This document shows positions 6,366-34,426 of a stretch of DNA of 49,717 nt, one piece after another. Each line of letters starts with the position of its first letter. Positions within the stretch are counted from its first letter, which is position 1. A model generated the notes under the pieces. The model saw only the letters and a program-made list of their open reading frames with translations. It had not been told where the DNA came from and made no database searches. The position numbers and the translations under genes are program-made. Source of the stretch: an uncultured Oscillospiraceae bacterium (GTDB lineage Bacteria; Bacillota; Clostridia; Oscillospirales; Oscillospiraceae); the NCBI GenBank assembly GCA_944387015.1, contig CALXDH010000018.1, positions 1 to 49,717 of the forward strand. The letters run 5' to 3'.

Positions 6366-6366
6366 T

Positions 6367-15487: not shown

Positions 15488-15494
15488 TCTATGT

Positions 15495-15790: not shown

Positions 15791-15795
15791 TGTAT

Positions 15796-16791: not shown

Positions 16792-16817
16792 CTGTTTTCT
16801 CTCCTTTGCCGCCCGTG

Positions 16818-17897
16818 TCAGTTATAGACCCTAGAGCGGATCAGCGTTCCGTCGGCCTCATACGTCTCAACGCTTGTGGTGATTCCTGCCTCGTTGTAGG
16901 TATAGACGTCATACGCCTCGAATGTCCCCGTCTCATCGTAGTAGTCCGCTCTCACCAGGCGGCCCTCGCTGTCATACTGGTAGAGCTCATAACCCTGCAA
17001 GGCGCCGTCCCCGCTATACACCGTTTCTTTCGTCTGTACGCCGTCGGCATATTCATACTCGTAAACCAGACTGGGCTCCCCGTTGCCATGGTAGTTCTCC
17101 TGGCGGGTCACGTTTCCATCCCCATCGTAGGTGTTCACCTTGTAGTAATCCACTTCGCTGTCCAGCGCGCCGGAGACATGTATGGTCTGCCGCACCGCGT
17201 TCCCGGCGGCGTCATATTCATACTCCCGCGCCCCCAGGCGGCCGTCGTCTATATGGTAATTTCCCGCATCCACAAGCCTGTTTCCCGCCTCGTCGTAGAC
17301 ATAGTCCACATGGCCCGCCTGGTTCCCGGCGGCATCAAAGCCGGTGACCGAGGCGATGCGCCCCTGGCCGTCGTAGGTGTAGGTGAAATAGGACATTAAC
17401 GACCCATTCTCATCGTAGTGGCTCTCCCGGCGGATATTGCCGGCGGAGTCGGAGAAGCTGCCACTCTCCATCTCAGAGAGCTTGTCGGCGATGCTCTGGT
17501 CATTGCCTGTTTTCTCCAGGGCCTCCCGGAGAATTTCCATGGCCTTGTCGTAGTCGCCCTGGCGGATGTACACGTCGGCAAGACCCAGCCAGCCGCCGGG
17601 CAGGGTCTCGTCCAGGGCGATGGCCGCCTCGTAGTCACTGAGAGCGGCGGAGAGGTTGTCCTCCGTGTCCCCGGACAATGCATAGGCGTCGCCGCGGCCA
17701 ATCAGGCCTTCGGGCCGCTTGGCGTCGATCTCGATGGCCGCTGTGAAGGCGAGAATGGCCTCTTCGTAGTTGCCCTCGGATAAGTACCGCACGCCCAGGT
17801 CGTACTGCTCCTGCCACGCCGCCGCGGCATTCTGCCCGCAGCCCGCAAGGCCCAGCACCAGGACCAGGGTCAAAATCCAACTGAAAATTCGTCTCAT
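16818..17897 (-). CDS. TPR and YD-repeat lipoprotein (paralog C)
   Basis: 359 residues from the ATG at 17897, which has AGGAG upstream; the longer frame has no ribosome binding site. Lipoprotein leader (MRRIFSWILTLVLVLGLAGC), TPR module to about residue 150, then YD repeats (YDENGSLMSYF, YDGQGRIASV, YDEAGNRLVD, YDAAGNAVRQ, YDGDGNVTRQ, YDSEGRLVRA, YDETGTFEAY). The amino part is nearly identical at the DNA level to paralog A, which indicates recent duplication or gene conversion. First gene of the minus-strand lipoprotein operon. Confidence 0.85.
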   Translation of the reverse strand: MRRIFSWILTLVLVLGLAGCGQNAAAAWQEQYDLGVRYLSEGNYEEAILAFTAAIEIDAKRPEGLIGRGDAYALSGDTEDNLSAALSDYEAAIALDETLPGGWLGLADVYIRQGDYDKAMEILREALEKTGNDQSIADKLSEMESGSFSDSAGNIRRESHYDENGSLMSYFTYTYDGQGRIASVTGFDAAGNQAGHVDYVYDEAGNRLVDAGNYHIDDGRLGAREYEYDAAGNAVRQTIHVSGALDSEVDYYKVNTYDGDGNVTRQENYHGNGEPSLVYEYEYADGVQTKETVYSGDGALQGYELYQYDSEGRLVRADYYDETGTFEAYDVYTYNEAGITTSVETYEADGTLIRSRVYN

Positions 17898-18017
17898 GTT
17901 TTCTCTCTCCTTTGCACGCGCTTTCTCCTGCCGCTGCCGATCCCGTTGGGGGAGACAACCGTGATTGGCGGTTTGCCACATGGAGATTTGACTGCCTGCT
18001 TTTTCCAATTGTTAAAT

Positions 18018-18238: not shown

Positions 18239-18592
18239 ATGGAACAGGGAACGTTGTTTTCCATAGACAGATCATCCTATACGAAGCGAATGGCCCAAAA
18301 TTTACCCGTGCTCCGTGCCAGCCTGGGGGTGAGTCAGGCGAACCTGGCTGAAATTATCGGGGTGACGCGCCAGACCCTTTCGGCGGCTGAGGCCGGTACC
18401 CGGGAACTGTCATGGGGGAATTTCATATCGCTTTTGTTTGTGTTTACCCAAAATGAGCAGACTTTGCCGCTCTTGCGCAGTCTTGGGATCTATACCGAAG
18501 AATTGGATTCCATGTTCCATATCACCAATTTGAAATCTTTGCGCGAACAATCTTCTTCCCCTAAAAAAGCAAGGGAGCGTGAAACCAAGTGA
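18239..18592 (+). CDS. XRE family helix-turn-helix regulator
   Basis: 117 residues. A Cro/C1-type HTH spans about 18-70 (LRASLGVSQANLAEIIGVTRQTLSAAEAGTRELSW). The C-terminal tail is polar with SSSPKKARERETK. The ATG at 18239 has GGGAGG upstream. Its stop overlaps the GTG of the ATPase gene (GTGA), so it heads the operon and is translationally coupled. The adjacent inverted repeat suggests that it represses or activates its own operon and perhaps the divergent lipoproteins. Confidence 0.87.
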   Translation: MEQGTLFSIDRSSYTKRMAQNLPVLRASLGVSQANLAEIIGVTRQTLSAAEAGTRELSWGNFISLLFVFTQNEQTLPLLRSLGIYTEELDSMFHITNLKSLREQSSSPKKARERETK

Positions 18593-21500
18593 GTGTTATT
18601 TTCAGAATTTACCAAAATTCAGATTTAACGGAGCGAGAACTGAATGAAAGCGACAGCTTCACGCTAGGAAGCGGGAAAAAAGATACGGTCTGCCTGGAAA
18701 ATGCGGGCCTTGGGAAAAAGCAGATTTCCTTTACCAAGACAGAAAACGGTTGGCAGTGGAAATCCGCTCAGCCTGCGTATCTTCACGGAAAACCGGTTGC
18801 ATCCGGCGTGCTGAAGTCAGGCGAGATCCTTCTCATAGATCAGGCGCAGCGGCTGGCGGTCACAATGATCGAACGGACTCCCGATGATACACAGATCATT
18901 GATTTATCCGGCCAAAGCCGGGTGAGTATCGGCCGGAGCAGCGAATGTGACATTGTAGTCGCAAGCCACCAGATTTCCGGGAAACACCTGGAGCTTTGCC
19001 GCAGCGCAGAAGGCTGGATCGCGCAGGATCTGGGCAGTTCCAACGGTACATACTGCAACGGCAAGCTGATTCGCGAGAAAACATTGCAGCCCGGGGATTT
19101 CTTGGACATCGGCCCATGTCGGTTGATCCTGACGGGGGATCATCTTTCCGTGGATTATAAGGGCGCGGTAAAGAGCAATTTTTCCTGCGGGCAGGTGGAG
19201 CGGACCGCAGAGAAACCGGAGGATCCGTATCCGTGCCAGTTTCATCGCTCTCCCCGGCTGTTGGAGGATGTCCCTTCGGAAACCATAGAATTTCAGGATG
19301 CGCCCAGCATCGGAGGAAAGCCGGAGGTCCACTGGGCAGGCATCATCATTCAGCCGCTTGCCATGATCGGAATTACCGCGGCTGTGTCGTTTTTTATGGG
19401 CGGCCCCCTGACTATGCTGTATTTCAGCGCGCCCATGACTTTGGTAAGTCTGGTCATGTCGGTCATGAACTATCGCAGGCAGATCAAAAATTACCGGCAC
19501 ATGGAGCAGCTGCGGCTGCAGAAATATGATGAGTACCTGGATGAACAGGAGGAAAAAATCCGGCAGCTGCAGCAGGAGCAGCGGCGGATTTTGATGACCA
19601 CGCACCCCGCGACCGCAGATTGTCTCCCTATTGCAGCAGAGCCTGCCCGCCGTTTGTGGGAGCGGCGCCGCAGAGATCAGGATTTCATGGAGCTTCGGGT
19701 CGGCGAGGGTTCACTGGATTCCTGTGTGGTATTTCAGGTTCCGCGCCATGGGCTTTCCCTGGTAGAAGACGATCAGGCGGGACGGGCCGGAGAACTGGCC
19801 CAAAAGTATGAAAAAGTTTCACGGTGCCCCATCACCTGTCCCTTGGGACGGTTCCCCACCTGCGGTGTGATTGGCGATCGCTCCTCCGCTCTGGCGGTGA
19901 CCCGCAATATGCTGGTACAAGCTGCAACGCACCACAGCTATGAAGATCTGCGCATGGTGCTTCTTTGTAAAGACGATGAATTGGCCCAGTGGTCGTTTGT
20001 CAAATGGCTTCCGCATATTTACGATGATACGCGCAGCCAGCGGTATATTGCCGATTCTGCCGAATCTGCCCGCCGGGTGCTGTCCAGCGTGATGGAAATT
20101 GTCTCCGCCCGCAGTATCGGTGAATCCCGCGACCGTGAGACGCTGCCCGATGGCCCGCATTACCTGTTTGTATGTGCCGACAAAGACCTGATCGAACGGC
20201 ATCCCATCAGCCAGTACTTGACCGCCAACGACCCGTCCTTGGGCGTCAGTGCGATCTTCCTGTACGACGAACTGGATCATCTGCCCAAGGAGTGCATGAC
20301 CATTCTGGAAATGCAGGGACACAAGGGGTGCATATACCAGCGGGAGAACGCCAATGTGCGCATACTGTTTGCCGTGGACCCGGTGCGGGAGGAGCTGTAC
20401 GACAGCTTTGCCCGGGCGCTTGCCCCTATCCGCATTGAGTTGACGGGCGGAAAGGGAACTCTGCCGTCCACGCTGTCCTTTATGCAGGGGTATCGGATGC
20501 GGCGTCCCGAAGAACTAAACCTGGCGGCAAAATGGGAGCAGGCCCGGCCTGAAAAGTCTATGGCGGTTCCCATCGGTGTACAGGCGGGAAATGAACCGTT
20601 CTATTTTGACATCCACGAAAAGAAGAGCGGTCCCCACGGCCTGGTGGCAGGCATGACGGGTTCCGGTAAGTCAGAGATGGTTCAGTCGTGGATTTTGTCC
20701 ATGGCGCTGGCGTTTCCTCCTGAGGCAGTATCCTTTGTTCTGATCGATTTCAAGGGAACGGGCCTTATTCTTCCTTTCCGGAATCTACCGCACCTTGCCG
20801 GTACGATTTCCGATCTGGACACCACCATCACGCGGAATCTGATCGCATTGGAAAATGAACTGACCCGCCGCAAAGCGCTGCTGGACGAAGCGGGCGTCAG
20901 CAATATCACCGGATACTTGAAGCTGTACCGGGAGGGCAAGGTCACGACGCCGCTTTCCTATCTGTTTTTGATCATCGACGAGTTTGCGGAATTTAAAGTC
21001 CAATTCCCGGACTTTATGCAGGTGATCAACCGCGTGTTTGCCATTGGCCGTACGCTGGGCGTTCATATCATTCTGCTGACGCAAAAGCCTGGCAGTGTGG
21101 TGGATGACAAGATGAGTGCCAACACGCGTTTTCGCTGGTGCCTGAAAGTTGCCAGCTCAGCAGACAGCAACGAAATGCTGCATCATACAGACGCTGCGCG
21201 GATCACCAACCCCGGCCGAGCCTATGTGCAGGTGGGCGAGGATGAGATCTATACGGAAATCCAGTCCTACTGGAGCGGCGCGCCATATAACCCGAACCGC
21301 GAACTGTCTCATAGCCGGCAAGAAAAATTGTCGGTAGTGGATCTGTATGGCTTCCGTAAGAGCTACGAACCTGAAAAGACGACTGGTTTCCGGGCGGAGA
21401 AAAATGAAATCGACGCCATTGTGGAATATCTGGATGCCTATACCAGGAAGAACGAGATATCCAGGGCGAGGAACATTTGGACGTCCAAGCTGCCGGGGCG

Positions 21501-23082
21501 GATCGAGCTTCCTGAGCTGTTGCATATTGCCTTCGACGGTGAGCACTGGGGCGACAATGCGGGCTTGGCACCTGTTGTGGGTATGCTGGATAATCCAAGA
21601 ACACAGTCTCAGTACCCCATGCATCTGGATCTGTTGGAAAACGGCCATACGGTGATCTACGGCGCTCCCGGCAGCGGCAAGACCACGTTTCTGCAGACCC
21701 TGATTTTGTCTGCGGCTCTGTCTTACTCCCCGCAGGTAGTTTCCATGTATCTGTTGGACTTCGGGGGCGGCAGTTTGAACCTCTTCCGGAATCTGCCGCA
21801 TGTGGGAGCGGTAGCCCGGGACAATGAAGAAGAGCGGGTCATGAAGATTTGCCGGCTCATCTCCGATGAACTGGGAGCAAGGAAAGATCGATTCTCCGAA
21901 TTGGGCATTGTGAGTATGGATGCCTATCGGGAAGCGACTGGCATCCAACTGCCGTATCTGATGCTGATTGTAGATAATTTCGGCCCTGTATTGAATTTGT
22001 ATCCGGATCTGGACGAATTCTTCCAGATCCTCACCCGTGAGGGCAGCGGGTACGGTATCTATCTGGTGGCTACTGCCAACAGTGAAAACGCAGTTTCTTT
22101 CCGAATCTCTCAGAATATCACAGGCGGAGTGGCTCTCCGGATGCAGGACCGGAGCGACTACAATTCCATTGTCGGACGTACGGATGGGCTGGAGCCGGAG
22201 AATCTGCCGGGCCGCGGCCTGTGCCGGGGGAAGCCGCCGCTGGAGTTTCAGACGGCACTTCCTGTGCCCGGTGAGAGCGAGAACCAGCGGGTCGCACAGG
22301 TCCGCCAGCTTGCAGAGTTGATGGATCGAAAGTGGGATGGGCCTCGCCCCAAAAAGGTCCCCGTATTGCCCAGACGGGTACTTGCACAGGATTGGACCAC
22401 AGAAGGCCTGCTGGCAGGTCTGGACCGCGAGACGGTTGAGCCTGTTTCCTACGATTTGGAAGCGAGACAGTTTTTGATGATTTCCAGCCACGGTTCGGCC
22501 CAGGGACGGCAGCTGCTTCAGGCTTTGACGGATCAGTTGCTGGACCGCTTTTCCAACGACTCTTTGGCACTGTACGACCCCGGCAGCATCCTCTCCCCAT
22601 ACAAAACCCGCTGCAGCGAGTATATGACGGCTGCAGACCGCTTTGACAGTTATATCGCGGACTTGATGCCTGTTTTGCAAAAGCGAAAGGAGCAGGCGGA
22701 AACCCCGGAGGGGATCCAATGGCTGGCGGAGCAGCCGGAGATTATCATTGTGATCGGTGACCACAAGCGCTGCTTTGATTTGGCCAGCAACGAGACCATG
22801 CGCCGTCTTTCCAGTATCATCAGCTTGGGGAAAGGACTGAAAGTGTGCTTGGTGATCCTCAGTGTTTCCGGTGAGCGGGAAGAACTCCGAGGAGATATGT
22901 TTACCATCAACCTGAATAACAAGGCCGATGTTTTGATGGTAGACGGCAGCTTCCGCTCTCACGGCTTGTTTGATAGTCAGTTGGATTATTCACAAAGCGG
23001 GGAGGATCTGCCGGAAGGGGATGCCTGGCTGCTGATGGATGGACAGGCGCGACGGATCAAAGCCGTGGAGATCGGGCAATGA
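18589..23082 (+). CDS. essC: EssC-like FtsK/SpoIIIE ATPase of a type VII secretion system, with FHA domains
   Basis: 1497 residues, the motor of WXG100 secretion. Order: a degenerate FHA-like domain (about 1-95), a canonical FHA domain (about 105-182) with GRSSECDI (115-122), the S..H at 131-133 and SSNGTYCNG (150-158), two membrane helices (about 250-292), a coiled coil (300-335), then three FtsK-type domains. Walker A motifs: GMTGSGKS (688-695) and GAPGSGKT (1025-1032); the third domain (SHGSAQGRQ, about 1298) is degenerate. FHA domains bind phosphothreonine, and an active kinase and phosphatase are encoded in the same operon. The GTG start overlaps the XRE stop. Length matches EssC (about 1480). 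Confidence 0.92.
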   Translation: MSVIFRIYQNSDLTERELNESDSFTLGSGKKDTVCLENAGLGKKQISFTKTENGWQWKSAQPAYLHGKPVASGVLKSGEILLIDQAQRLAVTMIERTPDDTQIIDLSGQSRVSIGRSSECDIVVASHQISGKHLELCRSAEGWIAQDLGSSNGTYCNGKLIREKTLQPGDFLDIGPCRLILTGDHLSVDYKGAVKSNFSCGQVERTAEKPEDPYPCQFHRSPRLLEDVPSETIEFQDAPSIGGKPEVHWAGIIIQPLAMIGITAAVSFFMGGPLTMLYFSAPMTLVSLVMSVMNYRRQIKNYRHMEQLRLQKYDEYLDEQEEKIRQLQQEQRRILMTTHPATADCLPIAAEPARRLWERRRRDQDFMELRVGEGSLDSCVVFQVPRHGLSLVEDDQAGRAGELAQKYEKVSRCPITCPLGRFPTCGVIGDRSSALAVTRNMLVQAATHHSYEDLRMVLLCKDDELAQWSFVKWLPHIYDDTRSQRYIADSAESARRVLSSVMEIVSARSIGESRDRETLPDGPHYLFVCADKDLIERHPISQYLTANDPSLGVSAIFLYDELDHLPKECMTILEMQGHKGCIYQRENANVRILFAVDPVREELYDSFARALAPIRIELTGGKGTLPSTLSFMQGYRMRRPEELNLAAKWEQARPEKSMAVPIGVQAGNEPFYFDIHEKKSGPHGLVAGMTGSGKSEMVQSWILSMALAFPPEAVSFVLIDFKGTGLILPFRNLPHLAGTISDLDTTITRNLIALENELTRRKALLDEAGVSNITGYLKLYREGKVTTPLSYLFLIIDEFAEFKVQFPDFMQVINRVFAIGRTLGVHIILLTQKPGSVVDDKMSANTRFRWCLKVASSADSNEMLHHTDAARITNPGRAYVQVGEDEIYTEIQSYWSGAPYNPNRELSHSRQEKLSVVDLYGFRKSYEPEKTTGFRAEKNEIDAIVEYLDAYTRKNEISRARNIWTSKLPGRIELPELLHIAFDGEHWGDNAGLAPVVGMLDNPRTQSQYPMHLDLLENGHTVIYGAPGSGKTTFLQTLILSAALSYSPQVVSMYLLDFGGGSLNLFRNLPHVGAVARDNEEERVMKICRLISDELGARKDRFSELGIVSMDAYREATGIQLPYLMLIVDNFGPVLNLYPDLDEFFQILTREGSGYGIYLVATANSENAVSFRISQNITGGVALRMQDRSDYNSIVGRTDGLEPENLPGRGLCRGKPPLEFQTALPVPGESENQRVAQVRQLAELMDRKWDGPRPKKVPVLPRRVLAQDWTTEGLLAGLDRETVEPVSYDLEARQFLMISSHGSAQGRQLLQALTDQLLDRFSNDSLALYDPGSILSPYKTRCSEYMTAADRFDSYIADLMPVLQKRKEQAETPEGIQWLAEQPEIIIVIGDHKRCFDLASNETMRRLSSIISLGKGLKVCLVILSVSGEREELRGDMFTINLNNKADVLMVDGSFRSHGLFDSQLDYSQSGEDLPEGDAWLLMDGQARRIKAVEIGQ

Positions 23083-23138
23083 TGTATGGAACAAAAGAAT
23101 AGGCCAATAAAATCGGCTTCACAGGAGGTGTGCATCGG

Positions 23139-23924
23139 ATGGCGGAGATGACCCTAAGCACAAAGGAGTTCCTGTTTGCGGCGGCCAATCTGGGTGCAAA
23201 AAATTTCTTCGGCATATCCGATCCGTTTTACGGCATGACGGCGGAGGAAATCCGAAGCGAATGCGAAAAGATTCAGCTTTCCCTTGAAAAGAAAGGATAC
23301 GCAGAGGTCGGCTTTGAGGGGGATTTTGCGCTCAAATCTGAGGCGGTAAGCCTGATAACTGCGTGTATCAAGTGCAGGAGCTATTTGCTTGTGCAACTGG
23401 GAGAGGCGGGAAAGTCCACCCGTCAATTCCTGGCCTATGCCGGCGAGAGCGGTTTGGTGGGAGCAGATGTTCAAGGCCAGGAGGTTTCTCTGAGACGAAT
23501 GGACAAAGAATCTGTAGTTCCAAGCGTGTTGGAGAAAATACAGCCTCCGGCTTCCGGCAGCGGAGAAACATGCAGTGCCGTGGTAAAGCAGGCGGATTTG
23601 GCGCAGGTGCAGAGCTTGGCGGTTGACGAACCGGAAAGAGCGGTGGGGCAATTGCTGGACAAAGGCTGCCCGAGAGAACTTGCTGCTGTCTTAGTACAGG
23701 GCTTTCGAAAGGAGGCGGGGCGGTATCTGCTCTTCCACACCGACGTTTGTGAGCGGTCGCTTACGGAGATGATGGTGATCCAGAGTACGGCCGGCGCGGT
23801 CTGCATGACGCTGGAGGATCTGGACGAGGACCTTTGGAAGGCGGAGTTCCTGCCCGGCGGAATTACGGAGGAATCGTTAAAAGACCTTTGCGCATTGGAA
23901 GGAGCAGGCCATGAAATGCTGTGA
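23139..23924 (+). CDS. EspG-like type VII-associated protein (tentative)
   Basis: 261 residues from the ATG at 23139, 10 bases after AGGAGG; a GTG at 23130 is too close to the site. It begins MTLSTKEFLFAAANLGAKNFFG, has a helical first third and a more beta-like remainder (RSYLLVQL, AGRYLLFHTDVCERSLTEMMV). This layout resembles EspG or DUF5081-type proteins that act as chaperones for ESX substrates, but the similarity is weak and no decisive motif is seen. No signal peptide or membrane segment. It sits between the ATPase and the YukD-like gene, overlapping the latter by 14 bases. Confidence 0.45.
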   Translation: MAEMTLSTKEFLFAAANLGAKNFFGISDPFYGMTAEEIRSECEKIQLSLEKKGYAEVGFEGDFALKSEAVSLITACIKCRSYLLVQLGEAGKSTRQFLAYAGESGLVGADVQGQEVSLRRMDKESVVPSVLEKIQPPASGSGETCSAVVKQADLAQVQSLAVDEPERAVGQLLDKGCPRELAAVLVQGFRKEAGRYLLFHTDVCERSLTEMMVIQSTAGAVCMTLEDLDEDLWKAEFLPGGITEESLKDLCALEGAGHEML

Positions 23925-24180
23925 AACGGCGATCGTAACCATTCGGCTGCACCCGGGCGAGCGAATGCTGGATATGGAGATCCCGACGTTTTTGCCGCTG
24001 GGCCAGTTGGAACCGCGGTTTCTTGAGACCATTCGGGAAATGGACCCTCTGCATTACGGCATGGTGTCTGCAGTGAAATTTTGCAGAGGAGAGCGGAAGT
24101 TATCCGGGGAGATTACCCTTGCGGAGGCTGGGATCTGGGACGGAGGCCTTTTGGACGCATATTTGAGCGAAGGGGCGTGA
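23911..24180 (+). CDS. esaB: YukD/EsaB-like ubiquitin-fold protein
   Basis: 89 residues. The pattern TIRLHPGERMLDMEIPTFLPLGQL..F at the start and LAEAGIWDGGLLDAYL at the end is that of YukD/EsaB proteins, ubiquitin-like cytosolic regulators of type VII secretion in Firmicutes. The gene starts inside the end of the previous gene and stops four bases before the WXG100-like gene. An N-terminal extension of about 8 residues with a CC pair is unusual. Confidence 0.8.
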   Translation: MKCCETAIVTIRLHPGERMLDMEIPTFLPLGQLEPRFLETIREMDPLHYGMVSAVKFCRGERKLSGEITLAEAGIWDGGLLDAYLSEGA

Positions 24181-24184
24181 ATGG

Positions 24185-24631
24185 ATGAAACTCAATTATG
24201 ATGCGGTCCGCCGGGATGCCAAAAAGCTGCGGGCGCTGGCAGATGACTGTGAGGCGGCAGCAAAGACCTGCAGCAACTACCAGAGTGAACTCGGCCAGTA
24301 CTGGCAGGGAGCTTCTGCGGACAGCTATCTGGCCGGGCTTGCGCAGTTGCAGCAAAAGAATAAGAACCTGGCTCGCAGCATTGAGCAGCTCTCTGCACAG
24401 ATCACCGCAGTAGCGGATGAACTGGAGGAGGAGGACCGCCGTCTGGCGGCGCAGATCGCCGCAAAGCGTGCCGCGGTAATTGCATCCACAGTAAAAGCGA
24501 CCGTCAAGACAGCGGCATCGGCCGGTGCGGTTCTGAGCGGTACAACATCCGCCACCACTCCAAAAACCAACACCAGCACGCTGCTTGAATCGGCGTCCGA
24601 CTTGTTGTCCCGCCTGTTCGGAAAGAGGTGA
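24185..24631 (+). CDS. WXG100-like protein with extended tail
   Basis: 148 residues. The first about 95 form the helical hairpin of the WXG100 family, with the turn motif Y-W-Q-G (Trp38-x-Gly40) followed by ASADSYL. Typical WXG100 proteins have about 100 residues; here an Ala/Lys/Thr-rich tail of about 50 residues is added (AAKRAAVIASTVKATVKTA..). It is probably a secreted partner or chaperone of the next protein, whose GTG start overlaps its stop codon by four bases. Confidence 0.82.
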   Translation: MKLNYDAVRRDAKKLRALADDCEAAAKTCSNYQSELGQYWQGASADSYLAGLAQLQQKNKNLARSIEQLSAQITAVADELEEEDRRLAAQIAAKRAAVIASTVKATVKTAASAGAVLSGTTSATTPKTNTSTLLESASDLLSRLFGKR

Positions 24632-26313
24632 GCGGAGTGAAAAGCGGATTGACGATTAAACTGAATGCTGCCCGGATGCTCCTTTTGCGTGCAGCGATGA
24701 AAAAAGAGGAACTTCGCCTGCAGAATACGGCCAGTCAGGTTGCCAGGATCGCTGCCGGACTGGAAATGGAGGTTGCCGCAAAGTCCAATATTGATGCGTC
24801 GCTGAACAACCTCAGAAAGCAGCTGAAGCAGGATTCCGAATACATGGGGACCATGCAGCGCATGGCGGACCTTGCCATAGAGGAGCTTTCAAAAAAGGAT
24901 GAAGACTTGGCCAATCAGGCAAGAGGCTTGAACTACACTGCGCAGCAGATCGTGGGAGCCGTTTCTTCGGCGCAGATATTGACTGGAACAGCGGAATATT
25001 CCACGACTGCGGCGGGAAGCTCCGGGGCGATGCGTTCCCCGTTGGATCTGACCTCTCAGTTGATCGCGGATGCTGCCCAGAAAATAGGAGGGCTTTTCGG
25101 CCTGGCTGGTGATGGCATGGGAGATGCCCTGCAGGGCGTCTCCCTGGAGCAGCTTGCTGCCGGTAATCAGACTTCGGCTGCCGGTTCTGCACAGCCCGGC
25201 CAGACCGCAGGAGCGTTGGCCGTTCTTGCCGGTGCCGGTATGGCGATTACCACCGCACTGGATGCAATTTTGAATTCCTTCAGCGGACATGGAAGCACAT
25301 CCGGTACGACCGCAACCAAAAAGACCTCCAGCAGCAAAAAAACCACCAAAAAAACTTCCAGCAAGAAGAAAAGCATGTGGGATAAGCTGGGAGATAAGCT
25401 GGAAGATGCGGGCGACTGGGTCGCCGAAAAGACCGAAGATGCCGTAGATGCTGCAACGGATGCAGTGAAGGACGGTGTCAAATGGGTCGGCGACAAAGTG
25501 GAAGAGGCGGCGGAGGCTGTGACAGACGGCGCCAAATTGGTTGGAGAAAAAGTCTCGGATGCAGGCAAATGGGTCAGCGACAAGGCGAGGGATGTTTGGG
25601 AAGTCGCAAAGACTGTGGCCGATAGTAAGCCCGTGGAGTATTTGTGGGACATGGGCGGCTCTGTCGTAGGCGGCGGTGCGGATATTCTGTCGTTCTGCGG
25701 GAATGTTTCTGCCGGGAAGATGGGAGAGGCGGTGCTGGATGGGTATAGCTTCATCAATAATTTCTTCGATTTTTCCCAGGATTCCGTAGCACTCTTTTCG
25801 TATGGAGTAGGCGCAGGAGCGGAGGCTTTGGGGGCAAAGCAATCGGCTGTGGACTATTTTTATGACTACGCCGAGGACTACGCCAATCGGGAAGGCCTGG
25901 CAGGAGAACTGCATGCAAGTGGTTTAGATGAGGTCGGGTATGTCGTCGATACCATCGATTTTTCAGTTGGTACCTATAAAGCTGTAACCGGTTTTGGAAA
26001 ACTGAGTTCCACACTTGACGGAATGAGTTGGAGCAGTCTGGATGATCTGAAGGATAATCTGCTTACTTTGAGTGGCTGGAAAGACGTTGGTTCGCTGAAA
26101 GATGCGGCGGATCTGAGTACGCAGATCGATCATTATAAGGATTTTTCCTCTAATGTGAAATTGGGCTATAAATATGTAGATGGCGCCTTTGGCGAAGACG
26201 GACTGCTTCTAACGGCTTTGAAGAATACCTCGGCGGGCAAACCAGGCGTTGGTTTGATTACGACAATCGAAGACTACCTAGACCTGCTGAAAGAGGTCAG
26301 CGAATCTGACTGA
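24628..26313 (+). CDS. Candidate type VII secretion substrate with helical N-domain
   Basis: 561 residues, no signal peptide. The N-terminal about 110 residues are helical like LXG/WXG-type targeting domains. Then come an Ala/Gly-rich hydrophobic part (GALAVLAGAGMAITTALDAIL, about 200), a Lys/Ser/Thr-rich linker (TKKTSSSKKTTKKTSSKKK, about 236-254), an amphipathic repeat region (KLEDAGDWVAEK, AVKDGVKWVGDK, VTDGAKLVGEK, VSDAGKWVSDK; about 260-330) and a C-terminal domain of about 220 residues that is not recognised. No known toxin motif and no adjacent immunity-like gene. GTG at 24628 is used; GTG at 24637 is an alternative with better spacing. Confidence 0.68.
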   Translation: MSGVKSGLTIKLNAARMLLLRAAMKKEELRLQNTASQVARIAAGLEMEVAAKSNIDASLNNLRKQLKQDSEYMGTMQRMADLAIEELSKKDEDLANQARGLNYTAQQIVGAVSSAQILTGTAEYSTTAAGSSGAMRSPLDLTSQLIADAAQKIGGLFGLAGDGMGDALQGVSLEQLAAGNQTSAAGSAQPGQTAGALAVLAGAGMAITTALDAILNSFSGHGSTSGTTATKKTSSSKKTTKKTSSKKKSMWDKLGDKLEDAGDWVAEKTEDAVDAATDAVKDGVKWVGDKVEEAAEAVTDGAKLVGEKVSDAGKWVSDKARDVWEVAKTVADSKPVEYLWDMGGSVVGGGADILSFCGNVSAGKMGEAVLDGYSFINNFFDFSQDSVALFSYGVGAGAEALGAKQSAVDYFYDYAEDYANREGLAGELHASGLDEVGYVVDTIDFSVGTYKAVTGFGKLSSTLDGMSWSSLDDLKDNLLTLSGWKDVGSLKDAADLSTQIDHYKDFSSNVKLGYKYVDGAFGEDGLLLTALKNTSAGKPGVGLITTIEDYLDLLKEVSESD

Positions 26314-26360
26314 TTTTCCCGATTCAAAACGATGAAGCAGGCATAAAAGGAGGCATCATC

Positions 26361-27515
26361 TTGGAAGCACAGCAGATTTATACAAGCATGATACAGGCAA
26401 ATGACCTCATGCGGGAGGCGCATTATGAAGAGGCACTGGAAGTGCTGAATTCCCTGGACGTGGACGGCGAACTGGCGGGCATGGTCAGCTTCATGAAAGG
26501 GTGCGCGTATTTGCAGCTGGAGCAGGATGAACAGGCGCATCTGTGCTTTGGTCAGGCCCTTAACCAGGGCTTGATTCACAAGCAGCTGTACATCAACTTC
26601 GGCATTGTCAAAAGTCGTATGGGCAACGTCCTCCAGGCTGAGCAGATGTTCCGTCAGGCGGCAGAACTGGATCCAACAGATGCACTGCCGCTCAACCGCA
26701 TTTTGCTCCTCCGGCTGGGCCGGGGTGATTTTGACGGCGCAGAGGCCATCATGGACGAACTGATGGAGCGAAACCCGGAGCTGGTGGACGGCTACCACCA
26801 CAAGGCGGACCTGCTCTTGGGTACCGGCCGCAGTGAAGAAGCGCTGGAACTGCTGAATGGTGTGGAGCATCGCTTTTCCGCCAATCCGCTGTATGTCTAT
26901 GACCGCTGCCGCGCCCTCCGGCGTGTGGGGCGGACGGAAGAGGCGCTGTCCTACCTGGATTCCCGCAAAGAGATCTTCCGCGAGGACACGGAACTGGTCC
27001 TGCTGAAAAAGCAGAAAGCGTCGCTCCTGGTCGATGCCAAGAGATACGATGAAGCAGTCCCGCTGTGGCGCGAACTCTATGAACTGTATGGCGACCGGCA
27101 GGCGGGAATGGCGCTGGCGGCCCAGGCGCTGTCTGAAAATGATATGCAGACGCTGCTGGGCATCGCCGAGGAAATGACTGCTGCACAGACGGAAGATGAC
27201 AGTCACTATATGTGCCTTTACTACAAAGTATTGGCGCTGCGGCAGTTGGGGGACCAGGAGGGAATGCGGGATGCGCTCCGTCAGGCTGCGGAACAGTTCG
27301 ACGCACTGGGAGATACCCCAAAAGGCGTCAAACTCCGCACTCTGCGGGCGACCATTTACATGGAGCTGGGGCGCTACGAAGAGGCGCTGCGTGATCTGGA
27401 CTCCCTGATCGCTCTGGTACGCCAGGATACCGATTCCGCGCAGCGGGCGCATACGCTGGAGGAATTGGAGGGACTGAAATCGGAGGTCCGGACCCGTATG
27501 AACTCGTTTGAATAA
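26361..27515 (+). CDS. TPR repeat protein of the type VII-like locus
   Basis: 384 residues, cytosolic (no signal or membrane segment), made of about ten TPR-like units (for example YEEALEVLNSLD, AEQMFRQAAELDPTDALP, RSEEALELLNGVE, RYEEALRDLDSL). TTG start at 26361 after AAAGGAGG. A scaffold role for the secretion machine or its substrates is the obvious guess from position. The following intergenic contains a short GCCGG/CCGGC hairpin (about 27530-27545) before the WXG100 ribosome binding site. Confidence 0.82.
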   Translation: MEAQQIYTSMIQANDLMREAHYEEALEVLNSLDVDGELAGMVSFMKGCAYLQLEQDEQAHLCFGQALNQGLIHKQLYINFGIVKSRMGNVLQAEQMFRQAAELDPTDALPLNRILLLRLGRGDFDGAEAIMDELMERNPELVDGYHHKADLLLGTGRSEEALELLNGVEHRFSANPLYVYDRCRALRRVGRTEEALSYLDSRKEIFREDTELVLLKKQKASLLVDAKRYDEAVPLWRELYELYGDRQAGMALAAQALSENDMQTLLGIAEEMTAAQTEDDSHYMCLYYKVLALRQLGDQEGMRDALRQAAEQFDALGDTPKGVKLRTLRATIYMELGRYEEALRDLDSLIALVRQDTDSAQRAHTLEELEGLKSEVRTRMNSFE

Positions 27516-27574
27516 ACTTGTATATCTTGCCGGAAGTCCCGGCTTGATCAAATTTTTTTAGGAGGAATTATAGT

Positions 27575-27889
27575 ATGGCAACGCAAGGAATCATTCAGGT
27601 AACTCCCGAACTGCTGCGGGGAGAGGCAAAAAATGTCCGTAAAATCAAAAGCGACCATGATGCGCAGATGCAGCAGCTGTTCCAGATCGTTCGTGCTCTG
27701 GAAAGCAACTGGAAAGGCAAGAGCCAGGATGCCTTTGTAGCAAATTTTGAGGCAATGAAACCCACGTTCCAGAAATTTTCCAAAATGCTGGAGGAGTATG
27801 CGGCCCTGATGGATCTCTCCGCAAATGATATGGAGAGCAAGGATACGGAGCTGGCAAGCAGAATCGCAAAGGCTACCACGTTCAACTGA
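27575..27889 (+). CDS. WXG100 family protein (EsxA-like)
   Basis: 104 residues, the classic length. Helix-turn-helix hairpin with W-K-G at the turn (ALESNWKGKSQDAF, Trp46), preceded and followed by amphipathic helices. AGGAGG ribosome binding site. Likely the major secreted WXG100 protein of the locus. A clear C-terminal YxxxD/E export signal is not seen. A strong RNA hairpin lies 31 bases downstream. Confidence 0.92.
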   Translation: MATQGIIQVTPELLRGEAKNVRKIKSDHDAQMQQLFQIVRALESNWKGKSQDAFVANFEAMKPTFQKFSKMLEEYAALMDLSANDMESKDTELASRIAKATTFN

Positions 27890-27919
27890 CTGTAATAGTT
27901 AATTATTTTGAATGTTTGC

Positions 27920-27953
27920 GCAGAGCGGCGCATGAAACCATGCGCCGCTCTGC
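27920..27953 (+). terminator. Strong hairpin between the WXG100 and kinase genes
   Basis: A perfect 15-bp GC-rich stem (27920-27934 with 27939-27953) and AAAC loop, but without a T tract. It may be a partial terminator or an mRNA-stabilising processing end that allows higher WXG100 expression than of the downstream kinase. Confidence 0.55.
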
Positions 27954-28041
27954 ATCGCGTGCGATAAAAAGGAAATCCAGCGGGTCTTCCGCATGACATA
28001 AATTGCGCATCACAACTGCACCAGACATAAGGAGAGAGAGT

Positions 28042-30468
28042 ATGGACCAACGCTATCAGATCGGTTCGGTGGTTTTTGGAACTTGGACGATCCGGCGTAA
28101 ATTGGGAGAGGGGAGCTTCGGCAAGGTCTTTGAGATCCAGCGAGAGGACTTTGGCGAGGTCTACAAGGCTGCCCTGAAAATCATTACGGTTCCGCAGACT
28201 GAAGCAGAGATACAAGGCGCCATGGAGGAGGGAATGTCTCCCCAGCAGGCAGAGCAGTATTTCTACGGCGTTGTGGAGGATATTGTGCGGGAGTTTGCCA
28301 TTATGGCAAAGCTCAAAGGCACAGCCAATGTGGTTGGATATGAGGACCACGCAGTGATCCGCCATCAAAGCGGCATCGGGTGGGATGTGTTGATTCGGAT
28401 GGAATTGCTCAACCCGCTCCTGCCGTATGCCTATGCGCATCCCTTTGCCCGCAGGGATATTATCCAGTTGGGAATTGATATCTGCCGGGCGTTGGAGCTG
28501 TGTCAAAAGTACAACATCATCCACCGGGACATCAAGCCGGAGAACATCTTTGTTTCTGATAACGGGGATTTCAAGCTGGGAGATTTCGGCATCGCCCGGA
28601 CCATCGAGCGTACCATGTCAGGCCTCTCCAAGAAGGGTACTTATAATTATATGGCACCGGAGGTATACCGCAGCGGCGAGTACGGTTTCAGTGTGGACTT
28701 GTACTCTCTGGGTATCGTCCTGTACCGTCTGCTGAACAAAAACCGCGTGCCGTTTTTGCCCCCACCGCCGGAACCCATCACATTCCACAGCAGGGAACTG
28801 GCTTTGGCCAAGCGCATGGGCGGGGAGCCGCTGCCTGCGCCGGTGCATGCCCAGGGCCGGTTGGCGGAAATTATCCAAAAAGCATGTGCATTTGATCCCA
28901 AAGAGCGGTATTCCAGCCCAGCTCAGATGCGCCAGGAGTTGGAGGCAATCCTCTATGACGAGGCGGATTCCGCACTGATCTATCCGGATGGTGATGAGCT
29001 GGCGCTGCTGGAAAACCAGTATGTCTCCCAGACACCGAAAACAGAGGATTTTCAATCGGAGGACATCAGCGAAGGAGACAAGACGGAATCCATGTTTGGG
29101 GGGATTTCCGGCGCTGACGACAGTTTGGATGGATCCCGGACCGAGAGCTTTTTCGGCGGATCGATTCCGGAAAATGAGACCTCCCGGACCGAGAGCATCT
29201 TTGGCGCGCCGCCTGCAAAAGAGAAAACCAAAAGTCAGCCCCAGGCTAAAAAGAAACCCAATGGGAAAAAGCGCCTGATTACCGGTGCTGTTGCGGGCGT
29301 GTTGGTGCTGGCGGCTGTGGGGGGCGGCTTCTTCATCTCCCGGCAGAAGGCACAACAGAGGATGGAACAGTATGTACAGCTGATGCAGGAAGGCTCCGAT
29401 CTGTGCGAAAGCGATCCTGACGCTGCTGCGGAACGGTTCCTCAGTGCGCAGAGCCTCTCTCCGGAGGAGGTGGAACCGAAGGTTTCCTACGCCTATGCGC
29501 TGTATTGCGGAGGAGACTACGAAGCATGCATCACATACATTGAGGACGACCTGGCGCTGGGGAAAGCCTATGACGTGGAGACCCAGAGCCGGCTTAGCGA
29601 GATTCTGGGCGCCGCTTATTTTGAACAGAAGGACTATGCAGCGGCCGCATCTTTCTTCCGACTGAGTACAGCCGGCGGGGACATTACCGTGTCGGCCCAG
29701 CGGGACTATGCGGTTTCTCTGGGAAAGCTGAAAGACTTTGACGCTGCGGATGAGGTGCTTCAGCAGATGATCTCTGCCGGGGCAGATGATATGGTCACCA
29801 GATATGTCCAGGCAGAGGTAGCCTATGCACAGGAAGAGTATGTGGAGGCCGAAAGCGGTTTCCGCTCTGTGCTGGAGGAGGCGGAGGACCAGACTCTGCA
29901 AATTCGGGCCATGCGGTCTTTGGCGGAGCTGTACCGGGACTGCGCCGCGCTGGTGCGGCTCAATCAGTCTCCTATCGAGTATCCCGCTACCAAAGAAGCG
30001 GAATTGCTGTCAGATGGAATCGTAAAATTTGGACTTCGTTATGACAGCACACTGTGGGAAATGCTGGCGCTGGCGTATTTTGAAGCGGCGCACACAGATC
30101 CCGGTGCGGAAAGCTATCTGTCCAAATCCGCCGATTGCTTCAATCGGGTCATCGAGCTGGGTGTGCAGAAAGAATACCTGTACAGCAACCTCTATACGAT
30201 TTATTATGAACTCGGTCGCTATGAGGATGCGGAAAATGCGCTGCAGCGATATGAGGAGGCGTTCCCGGATTCCTATATGCCCCATGCCTTGCGGGGCATG
30301 CTGCTCATCACCGTAGAGAACGCAAAGGACCAGTCCCAGCGCGACTATGCCGCCGCAGCGAAGGAATATGAAACCGCAGGCAGTTTACTGCGCAGTGATG
30401 ATGACACAACCTATTATCAGCAGCTCGGCAGCCTTCTGGATCAGCTGAAAGCTGGCGGATGGCTGTGA
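28042..30468 (+). CDS. Hanks-type Ser/Thr protein kinase with membrane helix and extracellular TPR-like region
   Basis: 808 residues from the ATG at 28042 (AAGGAGAGAG upstream). Kinase domain 1-310: glycine loop GEGSFG (22-27), Lys46 (AALKII), catalytic HRDIKPEN (161-168), DFG (181-183) and APE (205-207), so it should be active. A linker (320-410) contains KTED, KTESMFG, RTESFFG and RTESIFG repeats (Thr at 333, 348, 367 and 383). One membrane helix at about 412-432, then an outside region of about 375 residues built of TPR-like helices. Unlike PknB kinases it has no PASTA repeats. It probably signals to the FHA domain of the EssC-like ATPase; PP2C follows directly. Confidence 0.9.
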   Translation: MDQRYQIGSVVFGTWTIRRKLGEGSFGKVFEIQREDFGEVYKAALKIITVPQTEAEIQGAMEEGMSPQQAEQYFYGVVEDIVREFAIMAKLKGTANVVGYEDHAVIRHQSGIGWDVLIRMELLNPLLPYAYAHPFARRDIIQLGIDICRALELCQKYNIIHRDIKPENIFVSDNGDFKLGDFGIARTIERTMSGLSKKGTYNYMAPEVYRSGEYGFSVDLYSLGIVLYRLLNKNRVPFLPPPPEPITFHSRELALAKRMGGEPLPAPVHAQGRLAEIIQKACAFDPKERYSSPAQMRQELEAILYDEADSALIYPDGDELALLENQYVSQTPKTEDFQSEDISEGDKTESMFGGISGADDSLDGSRTESFFGGSIPENETSRTESIFGAPPAKEKTKSQPQAKKKPNGKKRLITGAVAGVLVLAAVGGGFFISRQKAQQRMEQYVQLMQEGSDLCESDPDAAAERFLSAQSLSPEEVEPKVSYAYALYCGGDYEACITYIEDDLALGKAYDVETQSRLSEILGAAYFEQKDYAAAASFFRLSTAGGDITVSAQRDYAVSLGKLKDFDAADEVLQQMISAGADDMVTRYVQAEVAYAQEEYVEAESGFRSVLEEAEDQTLQIRAMRSLAELYRDCAALVRLNQSPIEYPATKEAELLSDGIVKFGLRYDSTLWEMLALAYFEAAHTDPGAESYLSKSADCFNRVIELGVQKEYLYSNLYTIYYELGRYEDAENALQRYEEAFPDSYMPHALRGMLLITVENAKDQSQRDYAAAAKEYETAGSLLRSDDDTTYYQQLGSLLDQLKAGGWL

Positions 30469-30488
30469 CATCGGGGGAGCATGGCACT

Positions 30489-31253
30489 ATGAAGCTGATT
30501 TCCGAAGGCCGCTGCGGACGCGGTGTGGTCCGGCAGAGCAACCAAGACAATCTGTTTGTCAATGGGAAATACAGGGAGGCTCTCTCTGACCGGGAAATGA
30601 TGTCCTGTTCTGACGTGGCAGAAGCGGGAATTTACGCTGTCTGTGATGGAATGGGCGGCGAGCAATACGGGGAAGAGGCCTCTTTGCTCGCGGTGGAGGC
30701 CCTCCGGTGCCTGCCGGTGAAAGACTTTTTTGATCACGGGCCAGCTTATCTGAGAGAAATGAATCGGTCTCTTTGCACTCTAATGCGTCAGCGCGGTGCG
30801 AGAATCGGCACCACTTTTGTTGGGCTGAGTGCAGTTGGAGATATGGGACGTATTCTCAATATCGGAGATAGCCGGGCGTATTTGCTGCGTGCCGGCCGGC
30901 TGACCAAGCTCAGCCGGGACCATACGCAGGCGCAGCAGATGCTGGATCTGAAACTCATTACGTTGGAACAGGCGGCAAGTCATCCAGACCGGCATAAACT
31001 GACGCAGCACCTGGGGATCTTTCCGGAGGAAATGATTATTGAGCCGTATGAGTCAGATGGGTTCCCACTGTATCGGGGGGACTTGTTTCTGCTGTGCAGC
31101 GACGGCTTAACGGATATGCTCACAGAAGTGGAACTTGCACAGATTTTGCACGGTCCCCTTCGGGTGTCGGAAAAGGCAGATTGTTTGTACAAGGCTGCTG
31201 TACAGCACGGAGGAAAGGACAATATTACAGTAGTGCTGGTTCAGGCGGTTTGA
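30489..31253 (+). CDS. PP2C-family Ser/Thr protein phosphatase
   Basis: 254 residues from the ATG at 30489, 9 bases after GGGGAG. PP2C/PPM metal-binding motifs are in order: RQSNQDN (about 17-23), VCDGMGG (about 52-58), GTTFVGL, NIGDSRAYL, LCSDGLTD and GGKDNITVVL. It removes phosphate from Ser/Thr and is the natural antagonist of the kinase encoded 20 bases upstream. The insert ..REALSDREMMSCSD.. between the first two motifs is somewhat unusual. Cytosolic. Confidence 0.92.
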   Translation: MKLISEGRCGRGVVRQSNQDNLFVNGKYREALSDREMMSCSDVAEAGIYAVCDGMGGEQYGEEASLLAVEALRCLPVKDFFDHGPAYLREMNRSLCTLMRQRGARIGTTFVGLSAVGDMGRILNIGDSRAYLLRAGRLTKLSRDHTQAQQMLDLKLITLEQAASHPDRHKLTQHLGIFPEEMIIEPYESDGFPLYRGDLFLLCSDGLTDMLTEVELAQILHGPLRVSEKADCLYKAAVQHGGKDNITVVLVQAV

Positions 31254-31276
31254 CCGGCATGGAAAGGTGAATGACC

Positions 31277-32020
31277 ATGGGTAAACGAGTTTTCAGCCTT
31301 GTGCTGGTGCTGGCTCTGGCCTTGGGGCTGTGTGCCTGCGGCAGCAAGGCTCCCACTTGGCAGGAGCAGTATGACCTGGGTGTGCGCTATCTGTCTGACG
31401 GCAATTACGAAGAGGCAATCCTTGCATTTACAGCTGCCATTGACATTGATCCGAAGCGGCCGGAGGCCTACATTGGACTTGCCGATTCTTATGATCAAAG
31501 CGGCCGGCCGGAGCAGGCAATCGATATCCTGCGCAGCGCCATCGATCTGCTGGGAGAACTGCCGGAACTGCTGGAACGGCTGGAAGCGCTGGAAGGCAGC
31601 GCTTCCCCCCAGGGGGATGCACTGCCTGCGCAGGTGGAGGGGAGCTTAGAACTTCACGATGTAATCTGTGTTTTTTCGCGTGAGAGCGATGTCGTAGACA
31701 TGAACGAAAACGCTGTCGCCGGACTGGAAATCACCTGTACTGTCGACGGCCCGGAAACGGTTTGCGCTGTTTTAATCGCAGCTGCAGGCCCTGCGGCTAC
31801 GATGCAGCAGGAGATCGATGAGACGATTTCCTATATGGTCGATACCTGGAAGGAAGAGGGGGCCGTTGCTGCAGGAGAGACATTGCCGTTTACCACTACG
31901 TCATCTTGTCCGCTGATTTCCTATGATCTTGGCCAGACGTTCACAACCATACTGGTTGGTTTGGACGAACAGACCAATGCGGTTGGCTATGCGCTGGTCA
32001 CCGTTGATCTTCCGAGCTGA
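31277..32020 (+). CDS. TPR lipoprotein (paralog D) at the end of the type VII-like operon
   Basis: 247 residues. Lipoprotein leader (VFSLVLVLALALGLCAC) and then WQEQYDLGVRYLS..NYEEAILAFTAAIDID, nearly the same TPR module as the three divergent lipoproteins. The C-terminal 130 residues are different and lack YD repeats. ATG at 31277 chosen for spacing to AAAGG; ATG at 31271 is possible. It lies 23 bases after the phosphatase and so links the TPR lipoprotein family to this locus. Confidence 0.83.
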   Translation: MGKRVFSLVLVLALALGLCACGSKAPTWQEQYDLGVRYLSDGNYEEAILAFTAAIDIDPKRPEAYIGLADSYDQSGRPEQAIDILRSAIDLLGELPELLERLEALEGSASPQGDALPAQVEGSLELHDVICVFSRESDVVDMNENAVAGLEITCTVDGPETVCAVLIAAAGPAATMQQEIDETISYMVDTWKEEGAVAAGETLPFTTTSSCPLISYDLGQTFTTILVGLDEQTNAVGYALVTVDLPS

Positions 32021-34194: not shown

Positions 34195-34398
34195 TGCGGA
34201 ATGCGGCGAAAGGGGGAGCTCCCTGGCGCCACGCTCGGAATATTGATGACAAGAACCAGATCGCGAGGGAGCCTGTGTTCCAGGCTGAGAGGGTCCCAGG
34301 AAGGGCCGACCGTACCCTGCTTTTTCCAAAGCGGGGCAATCAGCATCTGCGTGAAAGCCATGGCAAGGCATATGCAGGTGCATATGCCTTTTTCTTTT
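34195..34398 (+). ncRNA. Candidate riboswitch leader with intrinsic terminator
   Basis: The leader folds by eye into an enclosing helix CAGAT (34257-34261) with ATCTG (34345-34349) around three hairpins: AGCCTG/CAGGCT, GGTCCC..GGG..GACC, and CCCTGCTTT/AAAGCGGGG. A terminator stem (34365-34376 with 34379-34390) and TTTTTCTTTT follow, only 28 bases before the phnD start. The segment GGGAGCC..GGCTGAGAGG..GACC resembles the 5' half of a thi-box (TPP) aptamer, but the usual GAACCTGAT and GCGTAGGGA blocks are absent. Class and ligand are open. Confidence 0.5.
34365..34398 (+). terminator. Leader terminator before phnD
   Basis: A 12-bp stem AAGGCATATGCA/TGCATATGCCTT plus T-rich tract. Its position between promoter and start codon implies transcription attenuation. 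Confidence 0.8.
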
Positions 34399-34426
34399 GC
34401 GCGGAAAATCGAATGGAGGTACTCCC

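Follow-up and report, generated by a model that had tools for sequence, protein, structure and literature searches.

The window analysed here is a whole contig of 49,717 bases (CALXDH010000018.1) from an uncultured Oscillospiraceae bacterium, the genome of which (2.42 Mb in 72 contigs) is 99.58% complete with a contamination of 1.42. Between positions 18239 and 32020 it carries eleven forward-strand genes, separated by gaps of 4-113 nt or overlapping by 4-14 nt, which encode in this order a helix-turn-helix (HTH) protein, the motor ATPase EssC, an EspG-like 264-aa protein, YukD, WXG100 protein 1, a 561-aa protein, a tetratricopeptide repeat (TPR) protein, WXG100 protein 2, a Ser/Thr kinase, a PP2C phosphatase and a TPR lipoprotein (Table 1). 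This set is a real, coherent type VII secretion system (T7SS), a class in which kinase-bearing members are already known; it has both an EccC/EssC-type FtsK-like ATPase and WXG100 proteins encoded with that motor. An initial annotation, made from the sequence alone, had described one co-oriented set with short gaps or overlaps. The open frames and the Pfam and NCBIfam profile scans of the operon proteins bore this out for every gene that it named, but it had missed the HTH gene and the EspG-fold gene.

Table 1. Features of the T7SS operon and of the divergent genes upstream. The kinase and TPR genes are listed from mechanical TTG start codons; the kinase has an ATG at residue 14.
Feature	Position	Strand	Evidence or remark
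XRE-type HTH protein (first gene)	18239..18592	+	HTH_3 3.6e-07; overlaps the EssC gene by 4 nt; same-cluster genes directly upstream of EssC in L036 and L043
EssC/TsxC motor ATPase, 1497 aa	18589..23082	+	TIGR03928 1091.4 bits (cut-off 778); FHA 6.6e-17; FtsK_SpoIIIE 6.3e-62
EssC FHA2 domain, residues 112-175	18922..19113	+	G115-R116, S130, H133, N152-G153 retained
EspG-fold chaperone (TsxG), 264 aa	23130..23924	+	Fold comparison
YukD/EsaB ubiquitin-like protein (TsxB)	23911..24180	+	PF08817 7.7e-09
WXG100 protein 1, 148 aa, WQG	24185..24631	+	PF06013 1.3e-11; starts 4 nt past YukD
Candidate substrate, 561 aa	24628..26313	+	N-terminal domain common to like-placed genes elsewhere; C-terminal part private
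TPR protein	26361..27515	+	TPR_2 4.5e-18
WXG100 protein 2, 104 aa, WKG	27575..27889	+	PF06013 8.5e-18; TIGR03930 68.1 bits
Membrane Ser/Thr kinase (TsxD)	28003..30468	+	Pkinase 4.1e-38 at residues 29-309; TPR matches in C-terminal half
Kinase linker motif 1, KTESMF (Thr361)	29080..29097	+	Sequence
Kinase linker motif 2, RTESFF (Thr380)	29137..29154	+	Sequence
Kinase linker motif 3, RTESIF (Thr396)	29185..29202	+	Sequence
PP2C/PPM phosphatase (TsxF)	30459..31253	+	Overlaps the kinase gene by 10 nt; PF13672 4.4e-08, above cut-off
TPR lipoprotein	31271..32020	+	TPR matches; lipobox-like LCAC, by eye
Three divergent paralogous TPR lipoprotein-like genes	14339-15817, 15796-16791, 16818-18008	-	Two with RHS repeats

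EssC consists of an N-terminal FHA region, a membrane segment and FtsK/SpoIIIE-type ATPase domains. It is the sole match above cut-off to TIGR03928 in the genome (a second match, on contig C4, spans 194 of the 1296 model positions), and the two operon WXG100 genes are the sole matches to PF06013 at E ≤ 1. Profile searches of the whole genome gave no match for EssA at an E limit of 0.001, nor for EssB/YukC and EsaA at an E limit of 1, as the initial annotation had expected. B. subtilis exceeded the cut-off as a control in the EssA search; one control genome exceeded it in each of the EssB and EsaA searches, with B. subtilis among the 5 and 7 control genomes matching, respectively. The accompanying statement that the T7SS of Firmicutes needs EsaA, EssA and EssB holds for T7SSb and fails for T7SSc to T7SSj, which lack these proteins and several of which have a kinase, a PPM phosphatase and an FHA domain (Garrett, Higginson and Palmer 2024; PMC11217815). 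DUF6382 (PF19909), which marks TseJ/TsfJ/TsjJ, likewise had no match in the genome; no control genome exceeded the cut-off in this search, and the model does match the gene of the comparison locus L042 (loci fetched for comparison bear L numbers below). In the locus itself, positions 18239-32020 hold no further frame of the size of a giant immunoglobulin (Ig)-type gene (TsxI), and no von Willebrand factor A (vWA) protein was found among the scanned proteins.

A tree of 74 EssC/EccC proteins, built by a quick search under one substitution model and assessed by the Shimodaira-Hasegawa-like approximate likelihood ratio test (SH-aLRT) only, with no bootstrap, placed the window EssC in a clade of 12 rows (SH-aLRT 99). 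This clade stood apart from a T7SSb group of 8 rows (SH-aLRT 100), in keeping with the earlier claim that the locus differs from T7SSb, and also apart from an f-like group that bears TadZ, from h-like and c-like groups and from T7SSa. Membership of T7SSb was rejected on this placement and on the failure of EsaA, EssA and EssB to match in the genome. The subtype labels are our own, assigned from neighbour genes, with no named reference for T7SSd, g, i or j; EsaA- and EssB-like neighbours were present for 7 of the 8 T7SSb rows, and none was seen for L092. L113, at first considered a T7SSd, grouped with T7SSa rows and is left without a subtype. The nearest neighbour of the window clade was an e-like clade (95) in the 74-protein tree, and in another tree the window clade lay beside all other non-T7SSa rows; thus, only its separateness is used here.

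The full set of EssC, EspG-like protein, YukD, WXG100, PP2C and kinase occurs at six loci of the clade (the window, L052, L053, L054, L107 and L108). An EspG-like gene is present in 9 of the 12, and kinase and PP2C in 8; of the four loci without kinase and PP2C, three (L051, L055 and L057) are short fragments (4.4, 6.9 and 13.3 kb, respectively). The clade is rare, L038 being its sole member among the 20 stretches of the family search, and L107 and L108 being found among the 20 of the class search. All 11 named EssC relatives are metagenome-type records: eight clostridial-titled or untitled (Clostridiales, Clostridia, Lachnospiraceae twice, Lachnotalea, Paralachnospira, Oscillospiraceae and 'uncultured bacterium'), two Synergistaceae and one Dysgonamonadaceae. 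The last, L051, is the nearest named EssC relative (46% identity) and lies on a 4.4-kb contig; its title, of a Bacteroidota family, seems likely to reflect a binning error. Two loci titled Synergistaceae branch just below the window clade; L059 and L061, so titled, encode a T7SS-type EssC, YukD and several WXG100-like proteins, and could be either real or a binning error. Separately, L090 and L091 carry an EssC with an FHA-like region, WXG100, YukD, PP2C and kinase, a set that we could not assign to any of the described subtypes. It adjoins a gene cluster common to L094, in which one gene encodes a T2SSE-type ATPase; that the cluster is Tad-like is a guess.

The 264-aa protein showed an EspG fold over its whole length by fold comparison, the only approach that gave EspG: by sequence, its family found no EspG among solved structures (best E 0.052). 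A 251-aa protein in the corresponding position of L058 was not counted as EspG-like (hhalign probability 20%, E 0.0011). The first 120 residues of the 561-aa protein matched N-termini encoded in L108 (1.1e-06), L107 (2.2e-06), L054 (8.4e-05) and L052 (0.0012), and its C-terminal part matched nothing better than E 0.14, all these values referring to the fetched loci. Since a shared start at like positions followed by a private remainder is a mark of polymorphic secreted proteins, the 561-aa protein is likely to be cargo. WXG100 protein 1 is a candidate partner of this substrate, and WXG100 protein 2, with 49-53% identity to the WXG100 proteins of L052, L053 and L054, is the best candidate for TsxA. 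The operon TPR protein has distant relatives in L057, L047, L098, L033 and L034.

The kinase is active-looking, to judge from its HRDIKPEN (HRD at 174) and DFG, and consists of a kinase domain, a linker, a predicted membrane helix from residue 425 and a TPR outer part. The linker carries KTESMF, RTESFF and RTESIF between the kinase domain and the predicted helix. When T..[VILMF][FW] was sought in the eleven operon proteins (4498 aa), all 3 matches fell inside the 106-aa kinase linker, and at least three matches arose in only 1 of 20000 shuffles of that linker. The same motif was present in 11 of 18 active kinases (HRD and DFG) linked to a T7SS, against 0.89 expected and a maximum of 5 in 3000 shuffles; with Ala or Gly permitted at +3, it was present in 13 of the 18 (1.56 expected). 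The Ser version occurred in none of the 18, with 0.99 expected, which is what a reader confined to phosphothreonine would require. Among kinases examined afterwards, L155, L129, L153 and L154 had the motif, as did the second, frame-split L054 kinase by eye.

Linkers were taken from HRD+145, chosen to lie close to where the Pfam kinase match stops (residue 309, with HRD at 174), which left 21 of 23 comparison linkers usable; a first cut at HRD+155 gave the motif in 9 of 18, with 20 of 23 usable. The 18 do not include the near-copy L091, the fragmentary or frame-split L053_24, L054_18, L054_19, L054_20, L060_22 and L107_15, the kinases without HRD or DFG (L036, L042, L043, L094, L097, L098, L104, L105, L106 and L114), L202, L203, L207 and L208 (no HRD), or L219, which was read later. 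From the 23, L172, L176, L177 and L181 (no HRD) and L168 and L179 (on a contig with the length, 33091, and the genes of the L054 contig) were left out. The description of these comparison kinases as not near EssC is weak for the short contigs L129 (3.0 kb), L165 (4.6), L175 (4.7) and L167 (6.2), and the genome of L153 has EssC on another contig.

The FHA2 domain of the window EssC retains all the ligand residues (GR, S..H and N-G) of the phosphothreonine-binding pattern. Six of the 10 readable clade members have the full pattern, against none of the 8 T7SSb EssCs; in the clade, L053 and L055 have Gln for His, L038 has an insertion and the start of L051 is missing. By sequence, the nearest solved structures are 1uht, which we take to be an Arabidopsis-type FHA entry of plant origin, and then GarA and OdhI, whose tail continues with V-F after ETTS. 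GarA/OdhI are regulated through this N-terminal phosphorylation motif (PMC12321487), and their FHA domain recognises a self-peptide, their own phosphorylated tail (PMC6733907). A tree of FHA2 alone was poorly resolved (5 of 46 branches starred).

L047, from the family of the window genome, bears on the pairing of kinase and FHA2. Within its EssC, residues 101-640 fall with the window clade and three more rows (99), and the ATPase part falls with the f-like set (100). Identity to the window counterpart is 52% for FHA2 (next best 37%), 80% for the kinase domain (next 60%) and 66% for the kinase outer part (next 28%), and RTESVF occurs twice in the kinase linker of L047. On these comparisons, FHA2 and kinase appear to travel together while the motor differs, L047 being an apparent natural swap.

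Based on these results, we lean towards the reading that the locus is a T7SS of a subtype outside the published T7SSa to T7SSj sets, with a phosphorylation switch between kinase linker and FHA2. The EspG-like protein and WXG100 protein 1 would hold the 561-aa substrate ready, and WXG100 protein 2 would act as TsxA. The kinase would most likely substitute for the pseudokinase EssB; its TPR outer part, a natural sensor, would perceive a signal, whereupon it would phosphorylate Thr361, Thr380 and Thr396 of its own linker. The resulting tags (phosphothreonine-Glu-Ser-hydrophobic-Phe) would dock on FHA2 of EssC, so that the machine is built or unlocked at the membrane, and PP2C would strip the phosphates and reset it. 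There are precedents: the phosphorylated linker of PknB binds FhaA (PMC12077195), and in B. subtilis the pseudokinase YukC binds to YukB at the FHA region of the latter, apparently with no phosphorylation involved (PMC9600267). The EssB-FHA contact, reported as phosphorylation-independent for T7SSb, would here be a switch.

Several observations weigh against this reading. Shuffling across the operon gives an expectation of ca. 2.45 matches, so that the place of the three motifs is unusual and their number is not. The strict motif is missing from 7 of the 18 T7SS-linked kinases, and from L174 and L219 among those examined afterwards, and it occurs in 5 of the 21 comparison kinases, which had no EssC in view nearby (0.63 expected). 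The motif was noticed before counting, on the same kinases, and the rows are related; thus, the shuffle figures are not clean probabilities. Linker and reader also fail to coincide in places: L053 has the motif with Gln in place of the FHA His, and FHA2 is intact in L113 and L054, yet the L113 kinase and the first L054 kinase have no motif. The outer part of the window kinase matches no other clade member, and the 20 kb of L038, a clade member from the family of the window genome, show neither an EspG-like gene nor one for a kinase or PP2C. As for L047, the contig end truncates its phosphatase, which is outside the ten best matches to the window PP2C, and identity between the TPR proteins of L047 and the window is no more than 23%; the apparent swap, of either direction, would cover FHA and kinase and not the whole cassette, and is one case in a draft genome.

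That the locus belongs instead to a published subtype (T7SSe, T7SSj or T7SSi), with accessory genes lost or shuffled and the kinase an ordinary regulator, is unlikely but the strongest of the rivals. T7SSe and T7SSj share TsxA, TsxB, TsxC with FHA, TsxD and TsxF, and the outer part of TsjD is of the TPR type (PMC11217815). The outer part of the window kinase matches those of L106, L105, L098 and L043 (25-28% identity), loci from the e-like and f-like regions of the tree; the window clade groups with the e-like clade as given above, a placement that is not firm; and genes of the FHA/DUF6382 cluster (c3) occur in the clade at L038, L052 and L054, the L054 one being an FHA gene without DUF6382. 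Against this stand the unmatched DUF6382, the want of a giant Ig-type TsxI in the locus, an EspG-fold gene, which the text of PMC11217815 does not describe for T7SSe or T7SSj, and the clade of its own, in a tree without named T7SSd, g, i and j. Membership of T7SSe was rejected for want of a TseJ (DUF6382-FHA) match in the genome, and that of T7SSj for want of a TsjJ match there and of a giant TsjI frame within 18239-32020.

A role of the kinase and phosphatase in controlling transcription or envelope processes, with the linker motif binding an FHA protein other than EssC, is improbable. An HTH gene does open the operon. In the comparison set of 21 kinases, T..[VILMFA][RK] was carried by 10, with 5.05 expected (18 matches in all, 5.89 expected), and it occurred in only 1 of the 18 T7SS-linked kinases (3.50 expected), and 6 of these 10 (one each in L158, L160 and L163 and three in L159) adjoin an FHA-type protein. 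The neighbour protein in L158 and L163 has, by Pfam, two FHA domains and an ABC (ATP-binding cassette) exporter; kinase relatives beside such exporters indicate that this kinase family serves other FHA partners. The linkers of L158, L159, L160 and L163 have Thr motifs ending in Arg or Lys; the kinase relative of L181, which also adjoins a protein with an FHA-type match, has no HRD. On the other side, the FHA2 and the kinase jointly nearest to those of the window are in L047, and EssC alone has an FHA match among the ten operon proteins scanned, a scope within which a true FHA partner encoded elsewhere in the genome could be missed. Finally, that phosphorylation acts on other parts (EssC, WXG100 or the chaperone) and the repeats are disordered filler is very improbable given the Thr-specific enrichment, the Ser version at or below chance and the rarity of three matches in linker shuffles, even though the linker of StkP bears seven phosphothreonines in a genus that has no FHA domains (PMC12077195), so that a phosphorylated linker does not by itself imply docking on FHA.

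The switch between kinase linker and FHA2 may, tentatively and with more doubt than the reading of this locus, be one case of a docking code, in which related membrane kinases are matched to different FHA-bearing membrane machines by linker tags. The T7SS motor would be addressed by T-x-S-hydrophobic-Phe, ABC exporters with two FHA domains by T-x-A/S-V-Arg/Lys, and small FHA proteins serving as separate adaptors by T-x-S/T-Asp/Glu-Ile/Val. T7SS assembly would then proceed by a phosphorylation-dependent contact of the EssB-EssC type, and the FHA-kinase pair would be transplantable between motor lineages, as L047 suggests. Tags of the third kind beside small FHA adaptors were seen at 2 loci only, L054 and L219. 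In L054, a separate 251-aa FHA protein (5675-6430) has TISVF and TVSAF, which are T-x-S-hydrophobic-Phe-like, in its own tail, and the linker of the nearby kinase carries TxS/T-D-I/V motifs; a two-step relay to EssC is possible. The L202/L203 lineage was dropped as support, its kinase linker being without the motif. YukD is fused to FHA there (L202:16033-16785, by Pfam; the matching L203 gene by sequence), and no FHA was seen in the neighbouring EssC, which looks like a transfer of the FHA domain from the motor to YukD.

Outside the operon, the TPR lipoprotein-like paralogues at 14339-18008 diverge from it and may be accessory or immunity genes; a related TPR lipoprotein gene closes the operon, and four related ones lie between a WXG100 gene and the kinase in L047. 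Downstream, 34397-36261 (+) encodes a phosphonate-type substrate-binding protein and an ABC ATPase, seemingly unrelated to the T7SS. The PP2C protein matched NF033484 at 1.5e-46 with 158.8 of 230 bits, below the cut-off of that model. Promoter and terminator scans stayed near the shuffled level (13 found against a mean of 9.1, and 15 against 13.5) and were set aside. A phage-defence reading was dropped: PADLOC, given six proteins, matched only the kinase and EssC (mad6, PD-T4-6, SspH, mad8 and others) and found 0 families for the other four.

The initial annotation had assigned reversible phosphorylation a central role. A kinase, a phosphatase and a phosphothreonine-competent FHA at one locus, together with the linker motif, sustain this; the general idea is not new, since T7SSc to T7SSj were described in 2024 with kinase, phosphatase and FHA. 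Phosphorylation control of some subtypes is raised there as a possibility, and the main text stops short of naming either a phosphorylated residue or a docking contact in any of the new subtypes (PMC11217815). No further T7SS subtype description turned up in open-access literature listings; a 2026 paper compares TsxD kinases with TraF and cites a structure of the T7SSb core in which YukC sits on the FHA domain of YukB. New here are the way in which EspG, FHA and kinase are combined, the motif in the linker and the pairing of FHA with kinase in L047. The locus unites, in a lineage outside T7SSb, a chaperone of the EspG type, a motor with FHA and an active-looking kinase/phosphatase pair, and the repeated tags of the kinase seem tailored to the domain with which the motor would read phosphate, pointing to a simple on/off switch. 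If so, this would suggest why T7SSb retains FHA and a dead kinase, namely as the relic of a once phosphate-dependent contact. With three threonines, one FHA pocket and one phosphatase, the question can be reduced to a test-tube experiment.

The part set of the operon (FHA motor, EspG-like protein, YukD, two WXG100 proteins, TPR kinase and phosphatase, with neither DUF6382-FHA nor a giant Ig-type protein) is absent among the sets described in PMC11217815. T7SSb, for example the Yuk system of B. subtilis, is similar in its FHA-bearing EssC, YukD, WXG100 and a kinase-like membrane protein adjoining the motor. It differs in having EsaA, EssA and EssB, none of which matched in the window genome, and a pseudokinase in place of an active-looking kinase; the window locus, in turn, keeps the phosphothreonine site of FHA2, has an EspG-fold chaperone and PP2C, and has its ATPase outside the T7SSb group. 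Some T7SSb do have an EspG-fold protein, EsaE (PMC11217815). T7SSc shares TsxA, TsxB, TsxC, the kinase, the phosphatase and an EspG-like protein, the window locus having counterparts of TscG, TscD and TscF, and in the c-like loci L209, L212 and L213 the chaperone gene lies directly 3' of the motor gene, as in the window. In L209, Pfam sees the vWA and PP2C neighbours weakly and nothing in the 276-aa EspG-like and 702-aa genes; the 276-aa gene matches our own EspG-like profile at 6e-18. T7SSc is described with a vWA protein and a motor without FHA (PMC11217815), the c-like motors lie near T7SSa in the 74-protein tree, and membership was rejected because the window EssC bears FHA.

T7SSe and T7SSj resemble the window locus in an FHA motor with a kept phosphothreonine site, a kinase and a phosphatase, T7SSe also in its two WXG100 proteins and T7SSj in its TPR-type kinase outer part (PMC11217815); the differences in J, I and the chaperone are those given above. 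T7SSh and T7SSi share an EspG-like TsxG, and TsiC has FHA; for neither does PMC11217815, as far as its descriptions go, report a phosphatase, and the FHA sites of T7SSi, a subtype compared by description only, are called poorly conserved. The kinase homologues of the h-like loci L094 and L097 are without HRD. Outside secretion, the closest likenesses are PknB-FhaA, in which a kinase-linker phosphothreonine is read by an FHA domain, and GarA/OdhI, in which Thr is followed by Ser and hydrophobic residues. The window motif has Ser at +2, unlike the +1 reported for DgcB/OdhI, and its FHA domain, unlike those of both systems, would belong to a secretion motor.

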